The position numbers and the translations under genes are program-made. DNA of 64,000 nucleotides from Acrocarpospora corrugata (GTDB lineage Bacteria; Actinomycetota; Actinomycetes; Streptosporangiales; Streptosporangiaceae). The stretch is taken from the NCBI RefSeq assembly GCF_009687845.1, contig NZ_BLAD01000047.1, positions 62,001 to 126,000 on the forward strand, in the 5' to 3' direction. Every line of letters starts with the position of its first letter. Positions within the stretch are counted from its first letter, which is position 1. Shown in pieces: positions 34,407-50,851 of the stretch. The notes beneath the pieces are model-generated. The model ran no database searches, was not told the origin of the DNA, and saw only the letters and a program-made list of their open reading frames with translations.

Positions 34407-35162
34407 TCAGCGGGTCGCGGCGAGTTCCTCGGCGAGGATGGGGGCCGCGACGGTGGCGGCGTGGATGCCGATGACGCTGACGATGGCCAGTACTTCCATG
34501 ATCTCCTCGGCTGTGGCGCCGTAGCCGATGGCGTTGCGCATGTGGAGTTTGAGGCCGGGGGCGTACAGGTGGGTGGCGGAGGCGTCGAAGGCGATGTAGA
34601 CGAATTCCTTGATTTTGGGTTCCAGGACGCCGGTGGTCCAGGGGACGCCGGAGAAGTCGAGGTAGGCCTCGAAGAGGTCGGGGTCGAGTTCCAGGAGGCC
34701 GTCCCAGAAGGTGTGCCAGTAGCCGCGGCGTTCGGTGAAGGCGGCTTTCAGGGATTCTCTGCGGTCGTCGAGGGGGGCGGGGCCGGTGCGCAGGCCCTCC
34801 TCTTCCAGGACTTCCAGGAGTAGGGGCACGCCGATGTTGGCGGCGTGGATGCCGAGTGTGCTGGTGAGTTCCAGCACTTCCATGATCTCCTCGGCTGTCG
34901 CGCCGTGGGCCAGGGCGGCGCGGACGTGCTGGCGGATGCCGGGTGTGTACAGGTGGGTGGCGGCGGCGTCGGCGGCGATGTAGATGAACTCCTTGACCAC
35001 CGGGGGGAGCACCTCTCTGCGCCACGGCACGGATGAAAGGCGCAGGTAGGACTCCAGGAAGCCGGCGTCGAGGCGCAGGATGTGCTCCCACGCGTCCCCC
35101 CAGGTGCCGCGGACCCGCACGAACTCGTCCTTGATCTCCTGCAGGCGTGGCGTGAGCGCCAT
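34407..35162 (-). CDS. Tandem carboxymuconolactone decarboxylase (CMD) domain protein
   Basis: A 251-residue protein made of two CMD repeats (about 20-125 and 140-245). Each has the segments VKEFIYIAADAAATHLYTPG or IKEFVYIAFDASATHLYAPG and then GATAEEIMEVLELTS. The Cys-x-x-Cys of AhpD types is absent; the conserved His and Glu of the PcaC-like core are present. ATG at 35162 after GAAGGACACG. The last gene of the left catabolic arm, 26 bases after the SDR. It may isomerise or decarboxylate a pathway intermediate. Confidence 0.85.
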   Translation of the reverse strand: MALTPRLQEIKDEFVRVRGTWGDAWEHILRLDAGFLESYLRLSSVPWRREVLPPVVKEFIYIAADAAATHLYTPGIRQHVRAALAHGATAEEIMEVLELTSTLGIHAANIGVPLLLEVLEEEGLRTGPAPLDDRRESLKAAFTERRGYWHTFWDGLLELDPDLFEAYLDFSGVPWTTGVLEPKIKEFVYIAFDASATHLYAPGLKLHMRNAIGYGATAEEIMEVLAIVSVIGIHAATVAAPILAEELAATR

Positions 35163-35188
35163 CGTGTCCTTCTCTCTTGTGAGCAATG

Positions 35189-35998
35189 TCAGTCCTGTGG
35201 GGTCCAGGCGCCCGAGCCGCCGGAGCGGACCACGGTGTTTACCATGAACGCGCCGCCGTCGGCGGAGACGACCTCCCCGGTGACGTAGGAGGCGTCCTCG
35301 CCGAGCAGGAACGCGACGACGCCGGCGATCTCGTCCACGGTGCCGACGCGCCGCATCGGGGTGGTGCCGCCGCGCAGCGCCAGGGTCTGGGCGCGGTCGG
35401 CGTGGCCGGAGGCGGCGAAGATGCCGGTGGGGATCAGTCCGGGGGCGACCGCGTTCACCCGGATTCCCCGCGGCCCGCCGTACATGGCGGCGCCGCGCAC
35501 CAGGCCCAGCAGTCCGTGCTTGGACGTCTGGTACGGCAGCTGGTCATCGGCCCCCCGCAGCGAGGAGATCGACGCGGTGACGACGACGGCCCCGCCGCCG
35601 TCCTGTTCCCGGTAGCGGCGGAAGGCGGCGCGCAGTCCGAGGAAGGATCCGCGCAGGTTCACCGCGATCACGTGATCGAAGTCGGCGGGGTCGACGTCGG
35701 GCAGGGGCGCCATTGTGCCGAGCACCCCGGCGTTCAGATGATGCAGGTCGATCCGCCCGAAACGATCCACGGCCGCGCGGATGTAGGCGTCCACCCCGGC
35801 TTCGGTGGAGACGTCGGCGGTCACCGCCACCGCCTCCCCCGGCAGCTCGCCCGCCACCCTGGCCGCCGACTCGCCGTCGACGTCGGCCACCACGACGTAC
35901 GCCCCCTCCCGGGCGAGGCGGCGCGCGCTGGCGGCGCCGATCCCGCTGCCGCCGCCCGTGACGACGGCCACCTTCCCGGCGAACCTCCCGCCGGTCAT
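35189..35998 (-). CDS. SDR oxidoreductase, left arm
   Basis: A 269-residue classical SDR. Cofactor loop TGGGSGIG (near 15), Asp after beta-2 (VVADVDG) suggesting NAD(H), Ser and Tyr-x-x-x-Lys in SISSLRG...YQTSKHG. The usual NNAG is replaced by HHLNAG, exactly as in the second SDR at 47287-48135, so the two form a special pair. Also shared is the segment RGAAMYGGPRGIRVNAVAPGL. The start overlaps the lactonase stop by 4 bases. Probably oxidises a hydroxy group of the opened ring. Confidence 0.9.
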   Translation of the reverse strand: MTGGRFAGKVAVVTGGGSGIGAASARRLAREGAYVVVADVDGESAARVAGELPGEAVAVTADVSTEAGVDAYIRAAVDRFGRIDLHHLNAGVLGTMAPLPDVDPADFDHVIAVNLRGSFLGLRAAFRRYREQDGGGAVVVTASISSLRGADDQLPYQTSKHGLLGLVRGAAMYGGPRGIRVNAVAPGLIPTGIFAASGHADRAQTLALRGGTTPMRRVGTVDEIAGVVAFLLGEDASYVTGEVVSADGGAFMVNTVVRSGGSGAWTPQD

Positions 35999-36795
35999 GG
36001 CGTCACGCGGGCGACCTGGCCGCCCGCGCCGTCCAGGAGCGGGAAACGGCGCAGCACGTCCGGGTCGTGCCCGGCCACCAGCACTCGGCCGGGATCGGCG
36101 GCCATCTCGCGCAGCAGCTCGTACGCGCGGTAGGTGTCCGCCAGGTCGGTCAGGTAGGTGAACGGCCGGTCCAGCTCGATCTCCTCGTAGAAGTGGGCGG
36201 CGTCGGAGGTGAGAATGGCCTGCCCGCCCTCGACGGCCACCAGGACGACGAGCTGCCCGGGGGTGTGCCCGCCGACGGGCACCACCTCGATGCCGGGGGC
36301 GACGGTCACCGCCCGATCCACGAAGGTGGCGCGCCCCTGGTCGCGGATGTCCCCCAGGTGGGCCAGCTCGGCGGCCTCCGTCGTGTACGCGAACTGACGC
36401 CGCCCGGCGTACGGCCCGGTCCAGAAGTCGAACTCGGCGCGGCCCATCACGATCTCCGATTCGGGGAAGGCGGCCAGGTTGCCGATGTGGTCGTAGTGCG
36501 CGTGGGTGGCGATGACCTGCGGCGCGTCCTCGGGGCGCACCCCCAGGGCGGCCAGGGCGGCCATCGGCTCGGCCAGCTCGGTGCGCTGTTTCCGCTTGGT
36601 GGGGCCCGCGGCGGCGTACCCGGTGTCGATCACGACCGTGTGCTGCTCGTTCCTGGCCACCCAGAGGTAGAAGTCCATGTCGATCGGGCCGTCCGGCTCG
36701 CCGTACACATGGTGGTTGAGGAACATCTCGGCGCGGGAACCGGTACGGGTGGCGTACCGGATCGCGAGCACCTCGTAGCTCGCCGCGCCGGTCAT
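35995..36795 (-). CDS. MBL-fold lactonase, left arm (AHL-lactonase-like)
   Basis: A 266-residue metallo-beta-lactamase fold hydrolase. Metal motif THAHYDH (about residues 97-103), later VPVGGHTPGQLV (near 170), SDAAHFYEE (near 192) and GHDPDV near the C-terminus. This is the AttM/AiiA-type dinuclear zinc arrangement, fitting a lactonase. It is paralogous to the lactonase at 46483-47265 (shared EVLAIRYATR and FWTGPYAGR). ATGA overlaps on both sides. Confidence 0.9.
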   Translation of the reverse strand: MTGAASYEVLAIRYATRTGSRAEMFLNHHVYGEPDGPIDMDFYLWVARNEQHTVVIDTGYAAAGPTKRKQRTELAEPMAALAALGVRPEDAPQVIATHAHYDHIGNLAAFPESEIVMGRAEFDFWTGPYAGRRQFAYTTEAAELAHLGDIRDQGRATFVDRAVTVAPGIEVVPVGGHTPGQLVVLVAVEGGQAILTSDAAHFYEEIELDRPFTYLTDLADTYRAYELLREMAADPGRVLVAGHDPDVLRRFPLLDGAGGQVARVTP

Positions 36796-37721
36796 GGGAA
36801 GAGCAGGGCGCCGGCGTTCGCCCCGAGCATGCGGCGGATGTCGTCCTCGGGCAGGCCGGCGTCGAGCAGGCCGCGCGCGCCGCGCCGGAACAGCGTCACC
36901 GGCAGCGGGTTGGTCTTCTGGCCGGAGTCGGAGGACAGCACGGTCTGTGCGGGACCGGCGGCCTTGATGAACGCCAGCAGCTCGCCGAGGTCGCGGCGGC
37001 GTTCCGGGCGGCCGAAGTACATCACCAGGCAGTGCTCGATGTGCGCGCCCTGGCGGGCCCACTCCGCGGCCTGCTCGGTGGAGGCGCCCACCACGAAGCA
37101 GGGGTGGTTGACCAGGATTCGGTCCACCCCCTCCTGCCGGGCCGCCCCGATCAGCTTGCTGGTCTCCGCCACGCCCAGGTGGCCGCAGGTCAGCACGGCC
37201 CGCTCGGCCGCGATGACGGACAGGATGTCGCGCACCTCGGGCAGCACTTCGCCGTCCTCGCCGAGAATGGTGATCACCGTGTCGGCGCGCAGCGCGACGG
37301 TGGGGGTGGGGAACCCGGTGTCGTGCGCGGCATGGTGCTGGATGTGCGCGGCCGAGGAGAGCGTGGGGAACCACACCACCCGCCCGCCCATCCGCAGGGC
37401 CAGCTCGACCGCGTACGGATTGAGGCCGCCGACGCTCCGGTTGAGCGCGACGCCGCCGCGTACCGCGATGGGCAGGTCGTCGAGCCCGGCCGGGCCGAGC
37501 GCCAGGATGTCGGTGACCATGCTGTGGTGGTGGGATTTGGCGACGATGGCCTTGAAGCCCGCGCCGGCCGCGTCCCTGGCCGCGTCGAGGATGGTCATCC
37601 GGCGCGGGAACGGGCTGGGGCCGGGGTGCTGGTGCAGGTCCACGGCCCCCACCAGCAGGGCGTCGGCTTCCGGGTCGGCGTCCAGCCGGTCGCCGTCCAG
37701 CTCGGGGTCGAGCAGGGTCAT
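36792..37721 (-). CDS. DUF6282 family amidohydrolase-like protein
   Basis: A 309-residue protein with metal-ligand patterns of the amidohydrolase superfamily: VDLHQHPGPS (HxH near residue 30), AKSHHHSMV (near 61), TCGHLG (near 178) and LVNHPCF (near 204), ending with LSSDSGQ. Length and motifs fit DUF6282, whose reaction is unknown. It sits between the ABC ATPase and the lactonase, overlapping the latter, so it probably hydrolyses the imported compound or an intermediate. Confidence 0.82.
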   Translation of the reverse strand: MTLLDPELDGDRLDADPEADALLVGAVDLHQHPGPSPFPRRMTILDAARDAAGAGFKAIVAKSHHHSMVTDILALGPAGLDDLPIAVRGGVALNRSVGGLNPYAVELALRMGGRVVWFPTLSSAAHIQHHAAHDTGFPTPTVALRADTVITILGEDGEVLPEVRDILSVIAAERAVLTCGHLGVAETSKLIGAARQEGVDRILVNHPCFVVGASTEQAAEWARQGAHIEHCLVMYFGRPERRRDLGELLAFIKAAGPAQTVLSSDSGQKTNPLPVTLFRRGARGLLDAGLPEDDIRRMLGANAGALLFP

Positions 37722-37737
37722 CAGTTCTCCTTGTTTC

Positions 37738-38829
37738 TCAAGTGCGGGGATCCCTGGTCACCAGAACCTGGTGGCCGGGATCCCAGTAGGCGATCACGCC
37801 GCCGCCGGGCCGGAGCTCGGCCCCGGTGGCGTCGGGCGGGAGCACGGCGCTGCCGGTGCTGCCGTGGCCGTAGTCGAGTTCGACCCGCTGGTGGGTGCCC
37901 TGGAAGTAGAGGCCGGTCACGGTCGCGGGCACCCGGTTGGCCCGCTCGGGCACCTCGCCGGGCGTGCCGGCCAGGCGCAGCCGTTCTGGGCGTACGACCA
38001 GGTCGTGCCCGGGTGGCGCGCTGTCGTCGGCGGCCCATTTGCAGCCGTGCCACTCGTAGCCGCCGCCCGGCCGCGGGCTCCCGTCGAACAGGTTCGACTC
38101 GCCCAGGAAGCGGGCCACGAACCGGGTGCCGGGGTTGCGGTAGAGGTCGGCGGGGGTGCCCACCTTCTCGATCCGCCCGTCGTTGAAGACGGCGATGCGG
38201 TCCGAGAGCGACATCGCCTCGTCCTGGTCGTGGGTGACGAAGACGAAGGTGAGTTTGAGCTCCTGGTGCAGCCGCTTGATCTCCTGCTGCAGGCTCTGCC
38301 TGAGCTTGCGGTCCAGGGCGCTGAGCGGCTCGTCCAGCAGCAGCACGCTGGGCGAGAAGACGACGGCCCTGGCCAGCGCGACCCGCTGCTGCTGCCCGCC
38401 GGAGAGTTCGTCGGGGCGGCGGCCGTCCATGCCGGTCAGGTCCACCAGTTCCAGCACCTCCGCCACCCGCCGCGCGATCTCGGCTTTGGGGACGCGGCGC
38501 TCGCGCAACGGGAAGGCGATGTTCTGGGCCACGGTCATGTGCGGGAACAGGGCGTAGTTCTGGAAGACCATGCCGAAGTTCCGCTTGTGCGGCGGGAGCG
38601 GCGCGATGTCGCGCCCGCCGAGCCGGATGCCGCCGGAGGTCACGTCGGTGAACCCGGCGATCATGTTGAGGGTGGTGGTCTTGCCCGATCCGCTGGGGCC
38701 GAGGAGGGTGAGGAACTCGCCGGAGGCGATGTCGAGGGTCACGTCGTCCACGACCAGCGGGCCGGAGCCGTACCGCTTGCACAGGCTGGTGAGTTCGATC
38801 CGCCCGCCGTCGGAGGTGGGAGTGGTCAT
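37738..38829 (-). CDS. ABC importer ATP-binding protein (PotA-like)
   Basis: A 363-residue ATPase. Walker A GPSGSGKTT (near residue 43), Q-loop VFQNYALFPHMTVAQNIAFPL, signature LSGGQQQRVALARA, Walker B LLLDEPLSALD, switch THDQDEAM, and a C-terminal TOBE-like regulatory domain (about 275-360). This is the spermidine/putrescine/iron-type (MalK-PotA) group. It overlaps the second permease by 4 bases. Part of the left arm transporter. Confidence 0.93.
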   Translation of the reverse strand: MTTPTSDGGRIELTSLCKRYGSGPLVVDDVTLDIASGEFLTLLGPSGSGKTTTLNMIAGFTDVTSGGIRLGGRDIAPLPPHKRNFGMVFQNYALFPHMTVAQNIAFPLRERRVPKAEIARRVAEVLELVDLTGMDGRRPDELSGGQQQRVALARAVVFSPSVLLLDEPLSALDRKLRQSLQQEIKRLHQELKLTFVFVTHDQDEAMSLSDRIAVFNDGRIEKVGTPADLYRNPGTRFVARFLGESNLFDGSPRPGGGYEWHGCKWAADDSAPPGHDLVVRPERLRLAGTPGEVPERANRVPATVTGLYFQGTHQRVELDYGHGSTGSAVLPPDATGAELRPGGGVIAYWDPGHQVLVTRDPRT

Positions 38830-39617
38830 CGCGGTGTTCCTCTTCTTCCTCGGCGCGCGCCGATCACCTGCCCGAGCAGGATGGGCACGCTGACCACCAG
38901 CACCATGAGGCTGGAGGCGGCCGAGATGGTCGGGTCGATCTGCACGGTCACGCTGTTGAACATCTGCACGGGCAGGGTGATGGCCGTGGGCGACTGCAGG
39001 AACAGCGCGATCACGACCTCGTCGAAGGAGGTGACGAACGCCAGGACCGCGCCGGAGAGCACGCCCGGCATGGCCAGCGGGAGGGTGACCTTCCTGAAGA
39101 CCGAGAACGGGGTCGCGCCGAGGCTGCCGCCCGCCTTCTGCAGGGCCGGGTCCATGCCCTGCAGCCGCGCCGTCACCGCGATCACCACGAACGGCAGGGC
39201 CAGCGCGGTGTGCGCGAGCGCGATGCCGAACAGGCTGCCGGTGAGGCCGAGCCGCAGGAAGGCCGAGAAGATCACCAGGGCGATCAGGATGTTGGGGATG
39301 ATGATCGGCGACAGCAGGAACCCGACGGCGAGCCCTCGGGCGCGTTCGCCCAGCCGGGTCACGCCGATCGCGGCGGCGGTGCCGAGCACGGTGGCGAACA
39401 CCGCCGTGATCAGCCCCACCTGCAGCGAGTTCTGGATGGCGACGGTCCACTCGGGCGAGGTGAACAGCCGCTCGTACCACTCCAGGGACCAGCCCTCGGG
39501 CGGGAACCTGAAGGTCTTGGCCGAGGAGAAGCTCATCGGGAGGACGACCATCGTCGGCACGGTCAGGAAGAGCCCGATCAGCACCGCGACGATCTTCAGC
39601 CAGGGGCGGGCGGTCAT
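38826..39617 (-). CDS. ABC importer permease 2 (PotC-like)
   Basis: A 263-residue permease with six spans and the EAA-type loop, seen as QKAGGSLGATPFSVFRKVTLPLAMPG (near residue 165). The conserved FDEVVIALF near 205 is typical of PotC/PhnV-type permeases. It overlaps neighbours on both sides (ATGA). Forms the inner membrane channel with permease 1. Confidence 0.93.
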   Translation of the reverse strand: MTARPWLKIVAVLIGLFLTVPTMVVLPMSFSSAKTFRFPPEGWSLEWYERLFTSPEWTVAIQNSLQVGLITAVFATVLGTAAAIGVTRLGERARGLAVGFLLSPIIIPNILIALVIFSAFLRLGLTGSLFGIALAHTALALPFVVIAVTARLQGMDPALQKAGGSLGATPFSVFRKVTLPLAMPGVLSGAVLAFVTSFDEVVIALFLQSPTAITLPVQMFNSVTVQIDPTISAASSLMVLVVSVPILLGQVIGARRGRRGTPR

Positions 39618-40522
39618 CGGTCGTTCCTTCCGGCTATCGCGTGGGCCGCGCCGGCGGCGGCGCCGGGACCGGTCAGGCGGCGGCTGGCGGCCAGCACCGC
39701 CAGCGTGACCACCAGCATGAAGACGCCCATCGCGCCGGCTCCCCCGAAGTCGAGCAGCTCCCGGGTCCGTACGCTGATCACCTGGGCGATCAGCGAACTC
39801 TGCGGCGAGCCGAGCAGGGCGGGGGTGACGTAGAAGCCGAGCGCCAGCACGAAGACCAGCGACGCGCCCGCGGCGACGCCCGGCAGCGAGAGCGGGAAGT
39901 ACACCTTGCGGAACGTGGCCAGCCGGCTGGCGCCCAGGCTCTGCCCGGCCAGCAGCAGCCGCCGGTCGATCTGCTGCATGACGCTGAACATGGGCAGCAC
40001 CATGAACGGCAGCAGCACCTGCGTCATCGAGATGGCCACTGCGGTGGTCGTGCCGAGCAGGGTGACCTCGCCCAGCCCGACCAGGCCGAGCAGGCCCTGC
40101 ACCACGCCGCCGTCCTGCATCAGCACCATCCAGGCGAAGTTGCGGGCCAGCATGCTGGTCCAGAACGGCACCAGCACGACCGTGATCATCACCGCCCGCG
40201 CGGTCTGCCCGGCCAGCGTCATCATGTACGCGTACGGGTAGGCCAGCGTCACCCCGGCCACCGTGACCACCAGCGCCACCAGCAGCGTGCGCCCCAGCAC
40301 CCGCAGCGTGTAGCCGTCGGTGAAGAGCGAGGCGTAGTTGCCCAGGCCGGGCTCGGGGTCGGTGAAGCTGTCCAGCAGGATGCTCAGCAGCGGCAGCACG
40401 AAGAACAGGGTCAGCGCCACCAGGGCGGGCAGCAGGAGCAGCGGTCCCGCGGCCCGCCGCCGGCCGCCCGGTGCGGGCGACGGCGGGGCCTCCGGAGCGG
40501 CGGCGGTGGTGATGGCCGGCAT
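39614..40522 (-). CDS. ABC importer permease 1 (PotB-like)
   Basis: A 302-residue permease with six spans and an N-terminal Pro/Ala-rich extension. The EAA-type loop is GQSLGASRLATFRKVYFPLSLPG (near 207). It is 3 bases downstream of the substrate-binding lipoprotein gene, in the order lipoprotein-permease-permease-ATPase, all on the minus strand. Confidence 0.93.
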   Translation of the reverse strand: MPAITTAAAPEAPPSPAPGGRRRAAGPLLLLPALVALTLFFVLPLLSILLDSFTDPEPGLGNYASLFTDGYTLRVLGRTLLVALVVTVAGVTLAYPYAYMMTLAGQTARAVMITVVLVPFWTSMLARNFAWMVLMQDGGVVQGLLGLVGLGEVTLLGTTTAVAISMTQVLLPFMVLPMFSVMQQIDRRLLLAGQSLGASRLATFRKVYFPLSLPGVAAGASLVFVLALGFYVTPALLGSPQSSLIAQVISVRTRELLDFGGAGAMGVFMLVVTLAVLAASRRLTGPGAAAGAAHAIAGRNDR

Positions 40523-40525
40523 CGG

Positions 40526-41578
40526 CTAGCTGACCTTCCAGCTCGTCCAGCGCTTCACGACGGCGTCGGTGTTGGCGATCCACCACGGCTTGTCCTGCTC
40601 CAGCAGCCGGCCGCGGTCGGGCAGGAAGGCGTTGAAGGACTTCTGCAGGTCGCTGTAGGCGATGCTGGAGATGTCCACGTCCGTCCGCGCGGGCGCGGTT
40701 CCGGTGAGCTCGGCGTACGCCTTGGCCTGGGCCGGCTCGGTCACGAAGGCGATGCCCTGCTGGGCCAGGGCCTTGTTGGGCGAGCCCTTCGGGATCACCA
40801 GGGCGCCGATGTCGGTGGTGGTGAAGTCCCACACCGCCTTCAGGTTGGCGCCGCTCTGGGCGGTCACGATCGACCGGGCGGTCACGGTGATCACCATCGA
40901 GCCCTGGCGGTCCACCAGCATCTGCTGCACGGCGCCGTAGCTGGGCGCGAAGACCAGCGAGTCCTTGATGGTGTCGAGTTTTCGGAAGGCCCGGTCCAGG
41001 TCCAGCGGGTAGACCTGGTCGGGGGCCACCCCGTCGGCGATCAGGGCGGCTTCCAGCAGGCCGCTCTTGGGGTAGTCCTGGACGATCCGCTTGCCGGGGA
41101 AGCGGGCCACGTCGAAGAAGTCGTCGATCTTGGTGGGCGGGTCGGCCTTGTAGTCGTCGGCGTTGTAGCTGAAGACGTTCGCGTACCGGTAGGTGGGGAC
41201 GAAGCAGTCGTGGGTGGTGCCCGGGGGGAACTTGCTCCGGTCCAGGCTCGGGTCGTCGAGTTTCTCGTACAGTTCGCCGCAGTACGCGCCGGCGTAGATC
41301 CAGCTCATGTTGGCCAGGTCCCAGGTCGTCTTGCCGGCCGCCACCATGGCCTTGACCTGGGCCGGTTCGGCGGGGCTGACATTGACGAAGGTGGTGCCCG
41401 TCTTGGCGGTGAAGGGCTCCTGAAGGGCCTTCTTCTCATCGGCCTGGAACTGGCCGCCGGTGCTCGCCCAGGTCAGGGTCTTCGCCGCGGCCTCGGTTCC
41501 GCTCTGGCCGCCGCAGGCCGCCGTGGCGGCCAGGAGCGCGCCGGTCACCAGCAGGGTGCGCAGGTGTTCATGCCTCAT
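40526..41578 (-). CDS. Extracellular solute-binding lipoprotein (PotD/SBP-like)
   Basis: A 350-residue lipoprotein: basic start, hydrophobic stretch and lipobox AATAACGG, cleaved so that Cys22 carries the lipid. The rest is a bilobed periplasmic-binding-protein type 2 fold: LTWASTGGQFQADEKKALQEPF (near 36), MVAAGKTTWDLANMSW, and RGRLLEQDKPWWI near the end. The family includes carriers for polyamines, Fe3+, and 2-aminoethylphosphonate-like and opine-like compounds; the ligand here is unknown. First gene of the left arm after IclR. Confidence 0.92.
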   Translation of the reverse strand: MRHEHLRTLLVTGALLAATAACGGQSGTEAAAKTLTWASTGGQFQADEKKALQEPFTAKTGTTFVNVSPAEPAQVKAMVAAGKTTWDLANMSWIYAGAYCGELYEKLDDPSLDRSKFPPGTTHDCFVPTYRYANVFSYNADDYKADPPTKIDDFFDVARFPGKRIVQDYPKSGLLEAALIADGVAPDQVYPLDLDRAFRKLDTIKDSLVFAPSYGAVQQMLVDRQGSMVITVTARSIVTAQSGANLKAVWDFTTTDIGALVIPKGSPNKALAQQGIAFVTEPAQAKAYAELTGTAPARTDVDISSIAYSDLQKSFNAFLPDRGRLLEQDKPWWIANTDAVVKRWTSWKVS

Positions 41579-41703
41579 GTTCTTGCCTTTCTAGAGCGAT
41601 AGATCATCGCGCTCGCGCAGAGCGTCGGATGATCCCGGGTTCGCCCCCGATCACCCGCTTGTTTGTGACCGTTCCGGCCCTGGGGCCGATCCGGCTTGAG
41701 TGG

Positions 41704-42495: not shown

Positions 42496-42597
42496 TGCGC
42501 GGGCCCTCCAATATGCGTTCTGTCCCGTACTTCGGGGCGGCTGTCCACTTATCCGATACGCCGGACTGTAGGGCACGCCCTTTGGGGTGCGTCAAGA

Positions 42598-42622
42598 TTT
42601 CCAGAACATTTCACCTGGGAAA
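42598..42622. promoter_or_regulatory. Candidate IclR operator between the arms
   Basis: Arms tttcc (42598-42602) and ggaaa (42618-42622), with further matching bases (cag/ctg-like) inside, form a pseudo-palindrome of the spacing typical for IclR sites. It lies in the 248-base gap between the divergent IclR gene and the aldolase gene. About 20 bases downstream is TTGACG with an 18-base spacer to a weak tacggt. Confidence 0.45.
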
Positions 42623-42743
42623 CTTTTGCGCCGTATGGGGCTCTTGACGCGGTTCGTCGCCAAAGCCTACGGTCAAGCCGATCCCGACATGCAGGACATC
42701 CATCCCGCATAGCGGTGACACGAGAGATGGACAGGAGACCTCC

Positions 42744-43508: not shown

Positions 43509-43529
43509 CCCCCAGAGGAGACCATTCCC

Positions 43530-44438: not shown

Positions 44439-45004
44439 TGAGCAGGCTCCGGCTGTTCGAGACCAGTGAGCTGACCGCCCGGCAGTGGGCCATCTACGAG
44501 CGGCTGACCGGCGGGCGGCGGGTCGGCAGGACGCCGTACCCGATCGTCGACGAGGCGGGCCGGCTGCTGGGGCCCACCAACGCCTGGCTGCTCAGTCCCG
44601 CCCTCGGCGAGGCGTTCGAGATGCTCGGCGAGGCCATCAGGTTCGACCTGTCGGTCAGCCACCGGATCAGGGAGATCGTCACGTTCCTGGTCGCCCAGCA
44701 CCGCGACAGCCCGTACGAGATCTACGCCCACCGCCTCACCGCGCCCGGCGCGGGGCTCTCCGAGACCGAGATCGAGAACCTGTGCGCGGGCCGCGACCCG
44801 GGCCTGACCGACGAGCGGGAACTCGTCGCGTACACGGTCACCCGCACTCTGATCGACTCCGGTGACCTCGACGAGGCCGCCTACGGGCAGGCGGTCGCCC
44901 TGCTCGGGGCGCAGGGCCTGTTCGAGATCACCGTGCTCGTCGGCTACTACCTGCTCACGGCCACGCAGCTCGCCGTCTTCGGCGTCACGCCGCCCAGCCC
45001 GTGA
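44438..45004 (+). CDS. CMD family protein, right arm 1
   Basis: A 188-residue carboxymuconolactone-decarboxylase-like protein. It starts MSRLRLFETSELTARQWAIYERL and has the helical core with REIVTFLVAQHRDSPYEIYAHRL and FEITVLVGYYLLTATQLAVFG, a pattern of the AhpD/PcaC superfamily without CxxC. The start overlaps the bicupin stop (TGATG). Function in the pathway unknown. Confidence 0.8.
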   Translation: MSRLRLFETSELTARQWAIYERLTGGRRVGRTPYPIVDEAGRLLGPTNAWLLSPALGEAFEMLGEAIRFDLSVSHRIREIVTFLVAQHRDSPYEIYAHRLTAPGAGLSETEIENLCAGRDPGLTDERELVAYTVTRTLIDSGDLDEAAYGQAVALLGAQGLFEITVLVGYYLLTATQLAVFGVTPPSP

Positions 45005-45016
45005 AAGGGGTCTGTG

Positions 45017-46486
45017 ATGCCCGATAGCGCGATCGGCGCAGTCGCGATCATCGGCGGCGGGTTCGGCGGCATCGCCGCCGCGGTCAAACTGCGGCAGGCC
45101 GGAATCGACGACTTCACCGTCTTCGAGCAGTCGCCGGGCCCCGGCGGCACCTGGTGGGACAACCGCTACCCCGGCTGCGAGGTGGACATCCCCTCCCACG
45201 CCTACTCCTTCTCCTTCGCCCCGCGCGACTGGCCGCGCACCCACGCCACCCAGCCGGAGCTGCGCGAGTACGCCGAGTCGGTGGTGGAGCAGTTCCGGCT
45301 GAGAGCCCGGTTCCGCTTCGGCGTCCGGGTGGAGTCGGTGACCTGGGACGAGGCGTCCGGATGCCACCGGGTGCGCACCAGCGACGGCGCGGAGCGGCCC
45401 TACCGCTTCGTCATCAGCGCGGTCGGCCTGCTGAACGTGCCGCGCTACCCGGCGTGGCCGGGGCTGGACACCTTCGAGGGGACCAGTTTCCACACCTCCC
45501 GGTGGGATCAGGAAGTGGATCTCACCGGCCGGCGGGTCGCCATCGTCGGCACCGGCTCGACCGCGGTCCAGATCGTGCCGGCCATCGCCGCGCAGGTCGA
45601 GCGGCTGCGGGTCTTCCAGCGGGAGCCCGGCTGGGTGGAGCCGAAGGGCGAGCGGGCCTTCACCCCCGCGGAACGGGCCCGCTTCCGGCGTTTCCCCGCG
45701 CTGCGCAGGCTCTACCGGTTCAGGCTCTTCCTGCAGTCGGCGCGCCGGTTCAAGGGTTATGACCTGGCCGGGCGGGAGCAGCGCCGGATGCGCGAGCGAT
45801 GCCTGCGCTACATCGGCGCCGCCATCGACGACCCGGCCGTGCGCGCGACCGTGACCCCCGCCTACCCGTGGGGCTGCAAACGCCCGATCTTCGCCAGCGG
45901 CTTCTATCCCGCCCTGAACCGCCCGAACGTCGAGCTGGTCCCCCACGCGATCAAGGAGGTCACCCCCAAGGGCGTCGTCGACGACCTCGGCGTCGAGCAC
46001 GAGGCCGACGTCCTCATCCTGAGCACCGGCTTCCAGCCGACCCGCTTCCTGTCCCAGTTCACCGTGACCGGCCGCGACGGCACGGACCTCCAGGACTTCT
46101 GGGGCGACCGCCCGCGCGCCTTCCTGGGCGTCACCGTGCCCGGCTTCCCCAACTTCTTCATCCTGTACGGCCCGAACACCAACGGCGGCTTCTCCATCAT
46201 CGCCCAGCTCGAACGCCAGGCCGAAGTGGCGGTGCGCGCCATCCGCACCGTGCTCCGCAGACGCGCCAAAGCGGTCGACACCCGCCCCGAGGTCCTGGAC
46301 CGCCACGTGCGCTGGCTGGACCGCCAGCTCGCAGATCACGCCTCAGCGATGGACTCCGGCTGCCACAACTACTACCACTCGCCGTCGGGCGCGAACGTCA
46401 CCCAGTGGCCGCGCACCCACTTCGTCTACTACCTGCTCTGCCGGACCCTGCCGCGGGCCGCGCTGATCTACCAGGGACGGTCATGA
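45017..46486 (+). CDS. Baeyer-Villiger-type flavin monooxygenase
   Basis: A 489-residue class B monooxygenase. First Rossmann motif IGGGFGGIAAAVKL (about 11-24) for FAD, GGTWWDNRYPGCEVD (near 47), the BVMO fingerprint GTSFHTSRWD (near 155), a second Rossmann IVGTGSTAVQIVPAI for NADPH (near 177), and STGFQP near the C-terminus. It should turn a ketone (often cyclic) into an ester or lactone with O2 and NADPH. Start at 45017 with GAAAGGGG. It overlaps the lactonase that follows, which is a logical next step. Confidence 0.92.
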   Translation: MPDSAIGAVAIIGGGFGGIAAAVKLRQAGIDDFTVFEQSPGPGGTWWDNRYPGCEVDIPSHAYSFSFAPRDWPRTHATQPELREYAESVVEQFRLRARFRFGVRVESVTWDEASGCHRVRTSDGAERPYRFVISAVGLLNVPRYPAWPGLDTFEGTSFHTSRWDQEVDLTGRRVAIVGTGSTAVQIVPAIAAQVERLRVFQREPGWVEPKGERAFTPAERARFRRFPALRRLYRFRLFLQSARRFKGYDLAGREQRRMRERCLRYIGAAIDDPAVRATVTPAYPWGCKRPIFASGFYPALNRPNVELVPHAIKEVTPKGVVDDLGVEHEADVLILSTGFQPTRFLSQFTVTGRDGTDLQDFWGDRPRAFLGVTVPGFPNFFILYGPNTNGGFSIIAQLERQAEVAVRAIRTVLRRRAKAVDTRPEVLDRHVRWLDRQLADHASAMDSGCHNYYHSPSGANVTQWPRTHFVYYLLCRTLPRAALIYQGRS

Positions 46487-47265
46487 GTTACGAAGTTCTC
46501 GCGGTCCGCTACGCGACCCGGCACACCCGGGCGAGCCACCTGTACGCCAACAGCTGGATATATGGCGAACCCGACCGCGATGTCCGGATGGACTACTACT
46601 TCTGGCTGGTGCGCGGCGGCGGCCGGACCATCATGGTGGACACCGGTTTCACCCCGGAGGTCGGCGACGCGCGCGGCCGGACCACGCTGTGCCCCGTGCC
46701 GGAGGCGCTGGCCCGCCTGGGCGTGAACCCCGCCGACGTCGACGCCGTCGTCCTCACGCACGGCCACTACGACCACGCCGGCCAGACCGGCCTCTTCCCG
46801 CGCGCCGAGATCGCGATCAGCGACCGCGAGCTGACGTTCTGGACCGGGCCCTACGCGGGCCGCCCCCAGTTCGCGCACGCCGTCGAAGCCGCCGACATCC
46901 AGGCGCTGCGCCACCTCGACGACGCCGGCCGGATCACCCGGCTCGGCGACCGCCACCCGCTCGCCCCCGGCGTCGAAATCGTCGAAGTCGGCGGGCACAC
47001 CCCCGGCCAGCTCGTCGCCCTGGTGGACGGCGAGGGCGGCCCGGTGCTGCTCGCCTCCGACGCCGTCCACTACTACGACGAACTCGGCCTCGACCGGCCG
47101 TTCGCCGTCTTCGCGAACCTGACCGGCATGTACCGGGGCCTCGACACCGTCCGCGAACTGGCGGGAGCGGACGTCGCCGTCGTCGCCGGGCACGACCCGG
47201 ACGTGCTGACCCGGTTCACCCCCTGGGATCGGGCCGACCCGGGCTTCGCGGTCCGCGTCAGCTGA
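46483..47265 (+). CDS. MBL-fold lactonase, right arm
   Basis: A 260-residue metallo-beta-lactamase fold protein: LTHGHYDHAG (near residue 93) for metal binding, VEVGGHTPGQLV, SDAVHYYDE and AGHDPDV as further ligand segments. Same architecture and shared segments (SYEVLAVRYATR, FWTGPYAGRPQFA) as the left arm lactonase. The ATG overlaps the monooxygenase stop. Probably opens the lactone made by the monooxygenase. Confidence 0.9.
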   Translation: MSYEVLAVRYATRHTRASHLYANSWIYGEPDRDVRMDYYFWLVRGGGRTIMVDTGFTPEVGDARGRTTLCPVPEALARLGVNPADVDAVVLTHGHYDHAGQTGLFPRAEIAISDRELTFWTGPYAGRPQFAHAVEAADIQALRHLDDAGRITRLGDRHPLAPGVEIVEVGGHTPGQLVALVDGEGGPVLLASDAVHYYDELGLDRPFAVFANLTGMYRGLDTVRELAGADVAVVAGHDPDVLTRFTPWDRADPGFAVRVS

Positions 47266-47286
47266 CCCGCCAGAAAGGAGATATAC

Positions 47287-48135
47287 GTGCACAGGAGATT
47301 CGAGGACAGGGTCGCCGTGGTCACCGGCGCCGGGTCCGGCATCGGCGCGGCCACGGCCAGACGCCTGTCGGCGGAGGGCGCGTCGGTGGTCGTGGTCGAC
47401 CTCGCCGGGGACGCCGCCCGCCACGTCGCGGCGGCGCTGCCCGGTCCCGCGCTGGCGGTCCAGGCGGACGTCTCGCGCGAGGAGGACACCGAGGCGTATC
47501 TGGCCTCGGCCGTGGACCGGTTCGGCCGCGTCGACCTGCACCATCTGAACGCGGGCGTGATCGGCACCTTCGACCGGCTGCCCGACATCGCGATCGAGGA
47601 CTTCGACCGGGTCGTGGCGGTCAACCTGCGCGGCGTGTTCCTGGGCGTGCGGGGCGCGTTCCGCCGGTACGCGGCGCAGGGCAGCGGCGGTGCCATCGTC
47701 ATCACCGCGTCCATCGCGAGCCTGCGCGGCAGCCATGACCTGCTGCCGTACGAGTCGTCCAAGCATGGCGTGCTCGGCGTCATGCGCGGCGCCGCCATGT
47801 ACGGCGGCCCGCAGGGCGTGCGGGTGAACGCCGTCGCGCCCGGCCTCGTCCCGACCGGCCTGTTCGCCGGCTCCGGCGGCGTCTCCGGAGCCGGTGACGA
47901 TCTGGCGCGGCGCGGCGCCACCGTCCCGCAGCGCCGTACCGGCACGCCCGAGGAGGTCGCCGCGGCCGTGACCTACCTGCTCAGCGACGACGCCTCCTAC
48001 GTGAACGGCGAGGTGCTCTCGGTGGACGGCGGCTCGGCCTGGGTGAACACCGTACGCCCCGGCGGCGGGGCGGGCGCCTGGGATCCGGGCCCGGTCGACG
48101 CCGCCGCCCGCGTGATCGTGGAGCGGGCCCGATGA
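47287..48135 (+). CDS. SDR oxidoreductase, right arm
   Basis: A 282-residue SDR, with TGAGSGIG (near 14), VVVDL after beta-2, HHLNAG in place of NNAG (near 85), Ser in SIASLRG and YESSKHG (near 160), plus a C-terminal tail rich in Gly. It has a GTG start with AAAGGAG. It matches the left arm SDR along its whole length and shares its odd HHLNAG motif, suggesting gene duplication with the lactonases. The stop overlaps the following dehydrogenase. Confidence 0.9.
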   Translation: MHRRFEDRVAVVTGAGSGIGAATARRLSAEGASVVVVDLAGDAARHVAAALPGPALAVQADVSREEDTEAYLASAVDRFGRVDLHHLNAGVIGTFDRLPDIAIEDFDRVVAVNLRGVFLGVRGAFRRYAAQGSGGAIVITASIASLRGSHDLLPYESSKHGVLGVMRGAAMYGGPQGVRVNAVAPGLVPTGLFAGSGGVSGAGDDLARRGATVPQRRTGTPEEVAAAVTYLLSDDASYVNGEVLSVDGGSAWVNTVRPGGGAGAWDPGPVDAAARVIVERAR

Positions 48136-49067
48136 ACGACACTCATGGAGCAGACCCGATGAACGGCACCGGCTTCATCGGCCTCGGGAACATGGGCGGC
48201 CGGATCACCCGGCGGCTGGTCGAGGCGGGCCACTCCGTCCTCGGGTACGACCCGGCGGCGGGCGCGGCCGAACGCGCCGGCGCGACCCCCGCCGCCGACG
48301 TCGCCGAGGTCGCCCGTGAAAACGATCTGGTTCTGCTCTCCCTGCCTGACAGCCGGGCGGTGGAGGCCGTGGTGCTCGGCGAGGACGGCGTGCTCGCCCA
48401 CGCCCGGCCCGGTCAGATCGTCGTGGACCTCAGCACCGCGGCCCCCGACTCGACCCGGCGCATCGCCGCGGCCCTGGCCGGCCGTGACGCCCGCTACCTG
48501 GACGCCGGCATCTCCGGCGGCGCGGCCGGCGCGGAGAAGGGCGTCCTGACCCTCATGGTGGGCGGCGAGGAACAGGCCCTGGACCAGGCCCGCCCCACGC
48601 TGACGGCCTTCGCCGCGAAGATCTTCCACATGGGGCCGTCCGGCACCGGCCATTCGGCCAAGCTGCTGAACAACTTCCTGAACGCGGTCAGCCTGGCGGC
48701 CACCAGCGAAGTCATGGTCGCCGCTCGCAAAGCCGGCCTGGACCTGCGCACGCTCCTGGACGTGCTCAACTCCTCCAGCGGCGCGAACTGGGCCACCGCC
48801 AACCGCTTCCCGCACATCGTCGAAGGCGACTACCTGGAGGGCGGGCTCACCTCCACCCTGATGACCAAGGACGTGATCCTCTACGTCGACCACCTGCGCG
48901 CCCTCGGCGTGCCGTCGCTGAACTCGGCGGGCCCGCTCGCCAGCTTCGGCCTCGCCGCCAACCTGGGCTACGCCGACCAGATCAGCAACCGCGTCGTGGA
49001 CGCCATCGGCGACATCACCGGCGGCGTCCGCCTGCACGACGAGCCCGAAGGAACGGTGACCACATGA
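48132..49067 (+). CDS. Beta-hydroxyacid dehydrogenase family (HIBADH-like) 1
   Basis: A 311-residue protein: FIGLGNMGGRITRRL (near 15) for NAD(P)H binding, a VLLSLPDS region, DAGISGGAAGAEKG (near 125, the substrate-loop), SGTGHSAKLLNNFLNA (near 175, catalytic Lys) and TLMTKDVILYVDHL near 245. Dehydrogenates or reduces a beta-hydroxy or semialdehyde acid. It overlaps the SDR stop by 4 bases. Confidence 0.9.
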   Translation: MNDTHGADPMNGTGFIGLGNMGGRITRRLVEAGHSVLGYDPAAGAAERAGATPAADVAEVARENDLVLLSLPDSRAVEAVVLGEDGVLAHARPGQIVVDLSTAAPDSTRRIAAALAGRDARYLDAGISGGAAGAEKGVLTLMVGGEEQALDQARPTLTAFAAKIFHMGPSGTGHSAKLLNNFLNAVSLAATSEVMVAARKAGLDLRTLLDVLNSSSGANWATANRFPHIVEGDYLEGGLTSTLMTKDVILYVDHLRALGVPSLNSAGPLASFGLAANLGYADQISNRVVDAIGDITGGVRLHDEPEGTVTT

Positions 49068-49095
49068 GAGACAAGCCCAAGAAGCGGCGCCCACG

Positions 49096-49488
49096 ATGAG
49101 AATCGTGCGCGGCCACGCCGAGGGGACGGCCTCCGTCCTCAAATCCGACACCTTCGTCGGCACGGTCTGGGCCGACTCGGTCCTGCCGACGACCGACGGC
49201 AACACCATCAACATCGTCACCTTCACCCCCGGCGCCAGGACCAACTGGCACGAACACACCCACGGCCAGATCCTGCAGGTACTGGCCGGCCAGGGCTGGG
49301 TCTGCACCGAAGGGGAACACCCCCGCCCACTACTGCCCGGCGACACCGTCTGGGTCCCCCCGGGCGAACGCCACTGGCACGGCGCGACCGAGACCACGCT
49401 GCTGACCCACACCGCCATCTCCATCGGCCCCACCCGCTGGTACGGCGAGGTCCGCGACGAGGACTACCCAACCGAGGAGTCACGATGA
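49096..49488 (+). CDS. Small cupin protein, right arm
   Basis: A 130-residue cupin: FTPGARTNWHEHTHGQILQVLAGQG (two or three His and Gln) and PPGERHWHGATE (His near 96). These are the two cupin motifs, with the size of quercetinase/CupinB-type proteins often found with CMD genes. It overlaps the CMD gene that follows (ATGA). Likely isomerase or metal-dependent auxiliary. Confidence 0.88.
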   Translation: MRIVRGHAEGTASVLKSDTFVGTVWADSVLPTTDGNTINIVTFTPGARTNWHEHTHGQILQVLAGQGWVCTEGEHPRPLLPGDTVWVPPGERHWHGATETTLLTHTAISIGPTRWYGEVRDEDYPTEESR

Positions 49489-49880
49489 ACCCCGAACGCT
49501 TCGAGGCCGGCCTGGCGATGCGCAAGAAAGTACTCGGCACCGAGCACGTCGAACGCTCACTCGCCGCGGTGAGCGACTTCAGCCGCCCCGTGCAGGAACT
49601 GGTGACCGAATACTGCTGGGGCGAAATCTGGACCCGCGAGGGCCTCGACCCGCGCACCCGCAGCCTGCTCAACCTCGCCATGCTCACCGCCCTCAACCGC
49701 GGCCACGAATTCGCCGTCCACGTGCGCGGCGCGATCGCCAACGGCGTCACCGAGTCAGAAATCCAAGAGGCCCTACTACAGGCCGCCGTCTACGTCGGCG
49801 CCCCCGCCGCCCTGGAATCCTTCCGCATCGCGGAACGAACCCTCACGGAACTACGCGAGCAGGGCGTGACAATCCCATGA
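49485..49880 (+). CDS. 4-carboxymuconolactone decarboxylase-like (PcaC) protein
   Basis: A 131-residue CMD protein of PcaC size: MRKKVLGTEHVERSL, YCWGEIWTREGLDPRTRSLLNLAMLTALNRGHEF and IQEALLQAAVYVGAPAALESFR. The conserved Arg/His/Glu of this family (TRSLL, RGHE) are present and there is no CxxC. Coupled on both sides by ATGA overlaps. It may act on a muconolactone- or butenolide-like intermediate. Confidence 0.9.
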   Translation: MNPERFEAGLAMRKKVLGTEHVERSLAAVSDFSRPVQELVTEYCWGEIWTREGLDPRTRSLLNLAMLTALNRGHEFAVHVRGAIANGVTESEIQEALLQAAVYVGAPAALESFRIAERTLTELREQGVTIP

Positions 49881-50851
49881 AGACCCCAGCCGAGCCGATA
49901 CGGCCTGGGGCCATGGCTGGCACCGTCACAGCCCCCGCTGAACCATCAGCCAAACCGGTACAGCCCGGGGCCGTGGTCGGTTTCATCGGGCTGGGCAGGA
50001 TGGGCCTGCCGATGGCCATCCGGCTGGCCTCGGCCGGCTACCGCGTCCGGGCGTACGACATGGCCGAGACGGCCCGCCGGGCCGCCCCCGCGGGCATCGA
50101 TGTCACTGGGGACGTCACGGCGGTGGCCGAGGGCGCCGATGCGGTGGTGCTGATGCTGCCCGACTCCGACGTGGTGGCGGCGGTGCTGGACGACGCGGGC
50201 CTGCTCGCCGCCGTCGCCCCCGGCACCGTGCTGATCGACATGGGCTCCTCGCAGCCGCTGCGCACCCGCGAACTGGCCGCGCGAGCCGCCGAACGGCAAG
50301 CGCGCCTGGTCGACGCGCCCGTCTCCGGCGGCGTCAAGGGCGCGGTCGACGGAACCCTCACCATCATGGCCGGCGGCGACCCCGGCGACCTCGCCCGGGT
50401 CTCCCCGCTCCTGGCGATCCTGGGCGGCCGGATGCTCCGGCTCGGTCCGGCCGGAGCCGGGCACGCGATGAAGGCGCTGAACAACCTGATGTCCGCCACC
50501 CACCTGCTCATCACCGCCGAGGCCCTGCTCGCCGGGCAACGTTTCGGCCTCGACCCGGAAACCATGCTGACGGCCGTGAACGGCTCCAGCGGGCGCAGCG
50601 GCTCAACCGAGAACAAATGGCCGAACTTCGTCCTCCCCGGCACCTTCGACTCAGGCTTCGCCCTGCGCCTGATGCTCAAGGACATGCGCATCGCGGTCGA
50701 ACTCGCCGAAGCGACCGGCATCGCATCACGACTCGGCCGCGCCTCCACCGACCTGTGGTCAGACGCGGCCGACCACCTACCTCCCACCGCCGACCACACC
50801 GAAATCGTCCGGCGCCTGCACCAGATCCAGCAGGACAACGAAGTGACCTGA
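49877..50851 (+). CDS. Beta-hydroxyacid dehydrogenase family (HIBADH-like) 2
   Basis: A 324-residue relative of the first dehydrogenase: VGFIGLGRMGLPMAIRLASAGYRV (near 35), VVLMLPDSDVV, DAPVSGGVKGAVDG (near 140), GAGHAMKALNNLMSAT (near 195, catalytic Lys), LMLKDMRIAVELAE. Its N-terminal 30 residues contain an imperfect repeat (AEPIRPGAMAG / AEPSAKPVQPGAVVG), so the start may lie further in. Last gene of the right arm. Confidence 0.88.
   Translation: MKTPAEPIRPGAMAGTVTAPAEPSAKPVQPGAVVGFIGLGRMGLPMAIRLASAGYRVRAYDMAETARRAAPAGIDVTGDVTAVAEGADAVVLMLPDSDVVAAVLDDAGLLAAVAPGTVLIDMGSSQPLRTRELAARAAERQARLVDAPVSGGVKGAVDGTLTIMAGGDPGDLARVSPLLAILGGRMLRLGPAGAGHAMKALNNLMSATHLLITAEALLAGQRFGLDPETMLTAVNGSSGRSGSTENKWPNFVLPGTFDSGFALRLMLKDMRIAVELAEATGIASRLGRASTDLWSDAADHLPPTADHTEIVRRLHQIQQDNEVT

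Follow-up and report, generated by a model that had tools for sequence, protein, structure and literature searches.

What kind of pathway is encoded by a two-armed gene locus of the actinomycete Acrocarpospora corrugata was the question behind the present analysis. The locus occupies positions 34407–50851 of a 64,000-nucleotide stretch of DNA (the window), which is part of contig C47 of a 9.27-Mb genome. According to the list of open reading frames (ORFs), it comprises 19 genes: an IclR-type regulator gene at the centre of two divergent arms, which is also the first gene of the left arm; eight further left-arm genes on the minus strand, transcribed in the reverse of the order in Table 1, from the solute-binding protein to the double carboxymuconolactone-decarboxylase-like (CMD) protein; and ten right-arm genes on the plus strand, from an HpaI-type aldolase and a two-domain cupin ("bicupin") onward. 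The initial annotation, made from the sequence alone, had described about 18 genes in two arms around IclR; the arms, and all named genes, families, order and coordinates, were borne out by the ORF list together with Pfam and NCBIfam, and only the count had to be raised to 19. Its remark that most junctions overlap by 1–4 bases held just barely (9 of the 16 junctions within the arms, the other 7 being gaps of 3–28 bases).

Three of these genes, encoding the HpaI-type aldolase, the bicupin and a DUF6282 protein, form a stable core around which importers and front-end enzymes vary. Among the best 80 loci of 347 confirmed bicupin relatives (59 from Pseudomonadota, 13 from Actinomycetota, 5 from Bacillota and 3 from Chloroflexota), HpaI was found in 71, DUF6282 in 64 and both in 61, and the figures for the 67 of these loci that were at least 17 kb long were 63, 58 and 56, respectively. 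The triad was complete in loci of Actinomycetota and Pseudomonadota, in all five Bacillota loci and in one of the three from Chloroflexota, the other two having bicupin and DUF6282 only, one of them on a 6.4-kb contig. A second set was confined to the window's order: a bicupin search of 345 genomes gave matches in 41, with 46 bicupin places above 100 bits including the window, and a neighbourhood was at hand for 42 of them, i.e., the window and 41 places in 40 stretches. DUF6282 was present in 36 and HpaI in 33 of these 40 fetched stretches. Since DUF6282 occurs in 92 of the 345 genomes, its chance meeting with a bicupin would be expected about once per thousand 20-kb stretches, an arithmetic estimate for this order only. 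The bicupin's neighbour in locus L157 is DUF6282. The window's own genome contains a second, divergent triad cluster in the order DUF6282-bicupin-HpaI (G000:C39:53700-73699, locus L046), accompanied by lipocalin-like, amidohydrolase, two CoA-transferase, two alpha/beta-hydrolase, acyl-CoA ligase, aldo/keto reductase, aldehyde dehydrogenase and SBP_5 (SBP_bac_5) genes; 8 further fetched stretches shared this neighbourhood, with HpaI missing from two of them. Two distant bicupins (L073 and L074) were also encountered within one 20-kb stretch of genome G001, with neither DUF6282 nor HpaI there, and represent a separate bicupin branch, perhaps with a different function.

The genes surrounding the triad were far from constant. 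The importers included Pot-type ABC, NMT1-type ABC, SBP_5, TRAP, TTT and MFS systems. One recurring partner cluster, whose representative was BKACE, appeared in 40 of 124 stretches, and the other recurring partners, likewise named by Pfam on one representative per cluster, were aldehyde dehydrogenases, flavodoxin-like oxidoreductases, "Cyclase" hydrolases, a luciferase-like monooxygenase, flavin reductase, thiolase and CoA-transferase. The smallest gene sets consist of little beyond a transporter and the triad, as in Microvirga (MFS, IclR, HpaI, bicupin and DUF6282, followed by a CoA-transferase pair) and in Paracoccus ferrooxidans (IclR, TRAP, DHOD-like, DUF6282, HpaI and bicupin). The use of MFS, TRAP, TTT and several ABC types by other triad clusters means that transport points to organic acids in general only. 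The window's importer scored below the Pot cut-offs among the matches listed (ATPase 344.1 vs 355.6 bits for PotA; permeases 133.3 vs 348 for PotB and 168.9 vs 326 for PotC), and its solute-binding protein had no NCBIfam match; naming the substrate from the importer was therefore rejected, the class of the binding protein fixing no ligand.

The reading preferred here, with a probability of about 0.5, is that variable front ends feed a common triad back end, in which a 4-hydroxy-2-oxo acid is cleaved by the HpaI-type aldolase to pyruvate and an aldehyde; any single assignment within this scheme is held with clearly less confidence than the scheme as a whole. In the window it would correspond to one IclR-controlled catabolic locus for a polar organic acid. 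The compound would be taken up by the Pot-type ABC importer and processed by a clade-specific front end of short-chain dehydrogenases (SDRs), a Baeyer-Villiger monooxygenase (BVMO) and metallo-beta-lactamase-fold (MBL) hydrolases, responsible for oxidation, oxygen insertion beside a carbonyl and opening of an ester or lactone. DUF6282, a presumed metal-dependent hydrolase, would then act before the bicupin, which would hydrate or isomerise its substrate to the 4-hydroxy-2-oxo acid cleaved by the aldolase. The two proteins of the 3-hydroxyisobutyrate dehydrogenase (HIBADH) family, HIB1 and HIB2, might reduce or oxidise a small product, perhaps one resembling tartronate or malonate semialdehyde. 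The initial annotation had proposed a complete import-to-cleavage route; the importer, regulator and pyruvate-type aldolase of a catabolic locus are indeed there, and the completeness of the route is conjectural. The alternatives weighed below overlap with this scheme in part, and their likelihoods are not meant to sum to one.

The firmest point is the aldolase. It passed the Pfam PF03328 threshold (76.5 vs 25 bits), its best solved match was GarL (1dxe, E 1.9e-30), and H44, R69, E149 and D175, which we take to be the catalytic and metal residues of HpaI, were conserved across an alignment of 105 proteins of 235–280 aa, each at a frequency of 0.99 or higher. These catalytic residues are in place in the window's aldolase, and the steps preceding it should yield a 4-hydroxy-2-oxo acid. 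The scores did not reach the NCBIfam equivalog cut-offs, either of HpaI (4-hydroxy-2-oxoheptanedioate aldolase, 126.6 vs 368.8 bits) or of GarL (2-dehydro-3-deoxyglucarate aldolase, 124.7 vs 393 bits).

The DUF6282 protein (309 aa), which like the first right-arm CMD protein (CMD_R1) matched in Pfam only and not in NCBIfam, showed both features of the amidohydrolase superfamily, i.e., the barrel fold in its predicted model (AlphaFold, pLDDT 95.8) and the HxH/H/H/D residues. In an alignment of 47 sequences D28, H30, H32, K62, H64, H181, H206 and D265 were invariant; in the model H30, H32, H181, H206 and D265, located after strands 1, 5, 6 and 8, would be the metal ligands. Foldseek matched the model to an amidohydrolase (E 6.9e-9), to many phosphotriesterase (PTE)-like lactonases and to renal dipeptidases, while the sequence profile gave only a weak match in the PDB, to a renal dipeptidase family protein (E 0.0031). 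The protein thus resembles the PTE-like lactonases and renal-dipeptidase-like amidohydrolases in the barrel and the HxH/H/H/D pattern but differs from them by its low identity (9–16% among the Foldseek matches listed) and by a conserved K62-x-H64 after strand 2. A separate trio recurs in which CMD_R1-like and MBL-like genes adjoin a second, divergent paralogue of DUF6282 with about 29–31% identity to that of the window (Table 1).

The bicupin (302 aa) had no match in Pfam, NCBIfam or a single-sequence PDB search, and its profile matched the PDB only weakly (a Cupin_2 protein, E 0.00083). H207, H209, E213 and H260 were invariant in an alignment of 53 sequences, and this 3-His/1-Glu site, located entirely in the C-terminal cupin, is predicted to bind a metal. 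The AlphaFold model (pLDDT 93.2) was matched by ureidoglycine aminohydrolase, oxalate decarboxylase, quercetinase, BacB and AerE among 50 of 1849 Foldseek matches. The bicupin shares the overall two-domain fold with such cupins (ureidoglycine aminohydrolase, BacB, AerE) but is only 8–14% identical to them and has its invariant site in the C-terminal domain only. A hydratase or isomerase is the first choice for its function because HpaI is the most constant neighbour (63 of the 67 long loci) and because the bicupin takes the hydratase's expected place in the ring-cleavage plasmids described below. The 3-His/1-Glu pattern, the quercetinase match and the oxygenases present in several bicupin clusters would also suit a gentisate- or quercetinase-like dioxygenase cleaving a ring or a diketone, with HpaI cleaving its 2-oxo acid product. 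This is considered unlikely: oxalate decarboxylase and the aminohydrolase fit the fold just as well, and two plasmids encode a separate extradiol-dioxygenase-family protein, which would make a second ring cleaver unnecessary.

These two plasmids, from different phyla (Rhodococcus opacus and Pseudosulfitobacter; L034:9232-15629 and L161:8998-17593), combine bicupin and HpaI with ring-cleavage genes, namely those for a flavin monooxygenase, a flavin reductase, an NTF2-like protein, an alpha/beta-hydrolase and the extradiol-dioxygenase-family protein. The Pseudosulfitobacter monooxygenase was assigned by NCBIfam to p-hydroxyphenylacetate 3-hydroxylase (688.2 vs 650 bits) and the Rhodococcus dioxygenase to biphenyl-2,3-diol dioxygenase (415.4 vs 366.45 bits), the Pseudosulfitobacter dioxygenase being below its cut-offs. 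A search of the plasmids, with the chromosomes not searched, found no FAA-family protein on either of them. One of the closest known systems is meta-cleavage of homoprotocatechuate (4-hydroxyphenylacetate), the lower part of which proceeds through HpaH and HpaI. The locus shares with it the terminal HpaI-type class II aldolase releasing pyruvate, and on the two related plasmids the bicupin and HpaI genes stand among meta-cleavage genes, in one case including that of the p-hydroxyphenylacetate 3-hydroxylase. In contrast to that pathway, the 19 genes include neither an FAA-family protein nor a ring-cleavage dioxygenase, but have bicupin and DUF6282 instead, and a BVMO-MBL front end.

The boldest form of the preferred scheme is that the bicupin founds a new enzyme class supplying an HpaI-type aldolase with its 4-hydroxy-2-oxo acid and that, with DUF6282 opening a lactone or enol-lactone, it makes up a portable "pyruvate-release" back end; this is put forward tentatively, as rather less than probable. 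If true, bacteria of four phyla attach the bicupin-DUF6282 back end to differing importers and oxygenases, and the bicupin acts as a hydratase or isomerase that uses a metal and shares no ancestry with FAA-type hydratases.

Several observations weigh against the triad scheme. No member of the locus has a known substrate, and among the matches listed no window enzyme reached an NCBIfam equivalog cut-off, for which reason deducing the substrate from close family models was rejected. HpaI was missing from 4 and DUF6282 from 9 of the 67 long loci, and within the order they were found in just 33 and 36 of the 40 stretches; the constancy of the bicupin itself is by construction, since it served to find the loci. 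Its structural matches were two-domain cupins in general (TM-scores of about 0.3–0.7), which makes the hydratase/isomerase role a guess and the dioxygenase role also possible. Bicupin plasmids of Sphingopyxis and Paracoccus do hold FAA-family proteins (in 5 and 2 places, respectively), and the NTF2-like protein found on both ring-cleavage plasmids might be an alternative hydratase. On an Agrobacterium plasmid (L158:5967-9885) there was a bicupin with neither HpaI nor DUF6282 within 9 kb; its neighbours were RraA-family, muconate-lactonizing-enzyme-family and aldehyde dehydrogenase genes. The RraA family includes other pyruvate aldolases, and perhaps one of them stands there in HpaI's place. 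Finally, with 490 aa the BVMO of the window falls short of most solved relatives (532–655 aa) by about 50 residues.

This protein is a predicted type I Baeyer-Villiger monooxygenase. The enzymes of this type are recognised by the fingerprints FxGxxxHxxxW[PD] and [AG]GxWxxxx[FY]PGxxxD, and it carries both (FEGTSFHTSRWD at 154 and GGTWWDNRYPGCEVD at 44); the closest solved chains were cyclohexanone monooxygenases (E 8.6e-81). Both MBL proteins have the HxHxDH motif of lactonases, with scores far below the equivalog cut-offs for acyl-homoserine-lactone (AHL) lactonases (AiiA, AttM, AidB, AhlS and YtnP; best 66.0 and 83.6 vs 360 bits, AidB), and both SDRs have YxxxK. The right-arm SDR passed the threshold of subfamily PRK07231 (glucose 1-dehydrogenase, 220.9 vs 215 bits), which is too broad for naming a substrate, and the last CMD protein, CMD_R2, was narrowly under the PcaC equivalog cut-off (151.1 vs 155.7 bits). 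The paired proteins were 48% (MBL), 63–64% (SDR) and about 40% (HIB1/HIB2) identical. Together, SDR, BVMO and MBL fit a ketone-to-ester-to-acid sequence, which does not fix the substrate.

The lactone- or ketone-type compound favored by the initial annotation as the substrate corresponds to an account in which the BVMO converts a cyclic ketone acid into a lactone, the MBL enzymes open it and the rest of the locus serves the linear product. Apart from the fingerprints, the cyclohexanone-monooxygenase relatives and the two lactonase-like proteins, it draws on the genetics: the BVMO gene immediately follows that of the bicupin in three Paractinoplanes, Actinomadura and a Microbacteriaceae metagenome-assembled genome (MAG), and the 13 BVMO-bearing rows formed a single supported group (99/95) in the bicupin tree. 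Only this group was used from the tree, which excluded the near-duplicates L037, L039, L041, L042 and L045, as well as L106 and rows below 270 aa. However, the BVMO was present in just 9 of the 80 bicupin loci (Acrocarpospora pleiomorpha, a Streptosporangiaceae bacterium, Nonomuraea fuscirosea, Actinomadura madurae, Streptomyces tagetis, three Paractinoplanes and the Microbacteriaceae MAG), compared with 71 for HpaI and 64 for DUF6282, so the triad exists elsewhere without it; and Pfam found no aldehyde dehydrogenase among the 19 genes. The proposal fits the BVMO branch alone; that a ketone-to-lactone step defines the pathway is not supported as stated, and the account as a whole is possible but not probable. 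Clusters of the chn type, for cyclohexanol and cyclohexanone, consist of a BVMO, an alpha/beta-hydrolase lactonase and an aldehyde dehydrogenase. The locus likewise has a BVMO, a lactonase-like protein and SDR adjoining, but with MBL in place of the alpha/beta-hydrolase, which Pfam also did not find among the 19 genes, no aldehyde dehydrogenase, and a pyruvate aldolase and ABC importer in addition.

Within the BVMO clade the locus was conserved as a whole. All 19 genes were found in the same order and orientation in four other genomes (G002, G003, G004 and G085) and 18 of them in two more (G152 and G154, MBL_R alone being absent), as the initial annotation had suggested looking for in other actinomycetes; with the whole order conserved, the grouping is not due to chance. 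The gene set was rearranged in G252. In Actinomadura madurae, as in stretches L042 and L043 of G252, DUF6282 in the left arm is followed by the block MBL-SDR-HIB1-cupin-CMD-HIB2, whose order is that of the right arm of the window; in S. tagetis it is followed by MBL-SDR-HIB1 as far as the stretch extends. Such placing of right-arm genes links the arms to each other and speaks for a duplication or later addition as the origin of the second SDR and MBL in the window.

A thiamine pyrophosphate (TPP) enzyme of the acetolactate-synthase/glyoxylate-carboligase group, present in the Actinomadura and Paractinoplanes versions, belongs to the evidence for a sugar-acid pathway (aldarate or uronate-lactone), where the bicupin would be a KduI/IolB-like isomerase, the aldolase a GarL-like 2-keto-3-deoxy-acid aldolase and the HIB proteins tartronate semialdehyde reductases. 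The best solved match of the aldolase (GarL), the best NCBIfam match of HIB2 (tartronate semialdehyde reductase) and the TTT and TRAP carboxylate importers of other clusters agree with this, and the GarL-GarR pathway of galactarate and glucarate indeed has a GarL-like aldolase and tartronate-semialdehyde-reductase-family partners in common with the locus. The locus differs in having no aldarate dehydratase family, in its BVMO and MBL proteins and in the equivalog scores, which are not reached; the HpaI and GarL models scored alike (126.6 and 124.7 bits), neither KduI nor IolB was among 50 of 1849 Foldseek matches of the bicupin, and we know of no role of a BVMO in aldarate catabolism. The sugar-acid pathway is therefore regarded as doubtful. 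Taking the TPP enzyme as a glyoxylate carboligase was rejected: it scored 247.3 and 240.8 vs 791 bits, no better than with acetolactate-synthase models.

The triad scheme also assumes that the two arms act together, which is likely from the DNA between them. IclR (start 42495) and HpaI (start 42744) are separated by two facing promoter-like sites, CTTGAC ... TACNGT, with spacers in the window of 19 (left) and 18 (right). In a four-genome alignment GTCAAG and CTGTAG of the left site and CTCTTGACGC and TACNGT of the right site were invariant. With the pattern CTTGAC-N-spacer-TA(C/G)N(G/A)T, widened after inspection of the alignment, the left site turned up in all 9 regions, always with a spacer of 19, and the right site in 8 of them, at spacers of 17–18; a narrower pattern with spacers of 16–18 recovered the left site in none of the 9 regions and the right site in 8. 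Imperfect dyads (A/G)TCC(C/G)-N5-7-(C)GG(A/G), resembling TCCCG-N5-CGGGA, lie 3' of each -10; the window region has 3 of them, 0.11 being expected, and each of 8 relatives has 2–4; their shuffle frequencies ranged from 0 to 0.063 across the regions, S. tagetis being the weakest. Both the promoter and the dyad patterns were drawn up after the sequences had been inspected, so these figures are flattering. The words common to this region and the gap between the solute-binding protein and IclR were only short GC-rich ones, leaving the dyads as the signal. The divergent region probably acts as promoter and operator. Conserved promoter-like sequence lies above 42495, for which reason this IclR start was preferred over that at 42576. 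Joint control of both arms is likely, given the facing pair of promoter-like sites with the repeated dyads and the presence of right-arm genes in the left arm of A. madurae and S. tagetis. A reporter assay could accordingly be used to look for the inducer and, through it, the substrate.

Biosynthesis or tailoring of a secondary metabolite, instead of catabolism, is highly improbable. BVMOs and lone cupins do occur in actinomycete biosynthetic clusters; the locus, however, holds an importer, an IclR regulator and a pyruvate aldolase, other triad clusters have TRAP, TTT or ABC importers, and Pfam assigned none of the 19 genes to a scaffold-building family such as polyketide synthase, nonribosomal peptide synthetase or terpene synthase.

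The peripheral enzyme families are ordinary, while the core triad appears undescribed. In the open-licence literature nothing was found on DUF6282, on gene clusters of a cupin with HpaI aldolase, on such an aldolase with cupin and amidohydrolase, or on a BVMO with HpcH and carboxymuconolactone decarboxylase in a catabolic context; titles and the opening parts of abstracts on lactone-degrading actinobacterial BVMOs and aldolases held nothing on this gene set, and among the records listed for bicupins, aldolase, IclR and catabolism none dealt with a bicupin. This agrees with the initial annotation, which knew of no described pathway with these genes. Two families without an assigned function, one of them with no Pfam or NCBIfam match, are thus linked by neighbourhood in several phyla to pyruvate release of the HpaI type, and the window represents an elaborate version of the triad locus. 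As the HpaI reaction is well understood, their function is directly testable with three purified proteins.

Table 1. Features of the locus in window coordinates, and the paralogue trio in coordinates of its own stretches. The starts of IclR, HIB1 and HIB2 are uncertain; the gene caller was trained on the window's own genes and gives no independent check of them.
Feature	Position	Strand	Basis
CMD2, two carboxymuconolactone-decarboxylase-like repeats	34407..35162	-	Pfam CMD, 2 stretches; closest solved chain 2q0t, putative CMD subunit, E 2.2e-100
SDR_L, short-chain dehydrogenase	35189..35998	-	Pfam, NCBIfam, YxxxK
MBL_L, metallo-beta-lactamase-fold, AHL-lactonase-like	35995..36795	-	Pfam, NCBIfam, HxHxDH
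DUF6282, amidohydrolase-like barrel, core member	36792..37721	-	Pfam PF19799 E 9e-66; alignments; AlphaFold; Foldseek
ABC importer ATPase, PotA/PhnT-like	37738..38829	-	Pfam, NCBIfam
ABC permease B, PotC-like	38826..39617	-	Pfam, NCBIfam
ABC permease A, PotB-like	39614..40522	-	Pfam, NCBIfam
Solute-binding protein, SBP_bac_8	40526..41578	-	Pfam
IclR-family regulator	41704..42495	-	Pfam; longer ORF possible to 42576
Putative divergent promoter/operator region	42496..42743	.	Facing promoter-like sites and dyads
HpaI/GarL-type class II pyruvate aldolase, core member	42744..43508	+	Pfam, NCBIfam, PDB match, residues
Bicupin, undescribed family, core member	43530..44438	+	Alignments; AlphaFold; Foldseek
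CMD_R1, weak carboxymuconolactone-decarboxylase-like	44438..45004	+	Pfam, 23.4 vs cut-off 23 bits
Predicted type I BVMO	45014..46486	+	Both fingerprints; PDB match
MBL_R, metallo-beta-lactamase-fold, lactonase-like	46483..47265	+	Pfam, NCBIfam, HxHxDH
SDR_R, short-chain dehydrogenase	47287..48135	+	Pfam, NCBIfam, YxxxK
HIB1, 3-hydroxyisobutyrate/tartronate-semialdehyde-reductase family, start uncertain	48132..49067	+	Pfam, NCBIfam
Single-domain cupin, (R)-mandelonitrile-lyase-like group	49096..49488	+	121.1 bits vs cut-off 140
CMD_R2, PcaC-like carboxymuconolactone decarboxylase	49485..49880	+	NCBIfam, 151.1 bits vs cut-off 155.7
HIB2, second HIBADH/tartronate-semialdehyde-reductase-family protein, start uncertain	49877..50851	+	Best NCBIfam match tartronate semialdehyde reductase, below cut-off
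DUF6282-paralogue trio	L079:14191-16603, L081:13523-15878, L086:12901-15181		

Near the end of the right arm, at 49096–49880, the mandelonitrile-lyase-like cupin gene overlaps that of the PcaC-like CMD, and the two are flanked by both HIBADH genes. Immediately to the left of the locus there is a long ORF of 1474 aa on the minus strand (window 28382–32806). On the right, positions 53900–55471 encode a protein resembling gamma-glutamyltransferase, as judged by eye from the sequence, and between it and the locus there are SRPBCC-like, SDR-like and methyltransferase-like genes on the minus strand, also recognised by eye.

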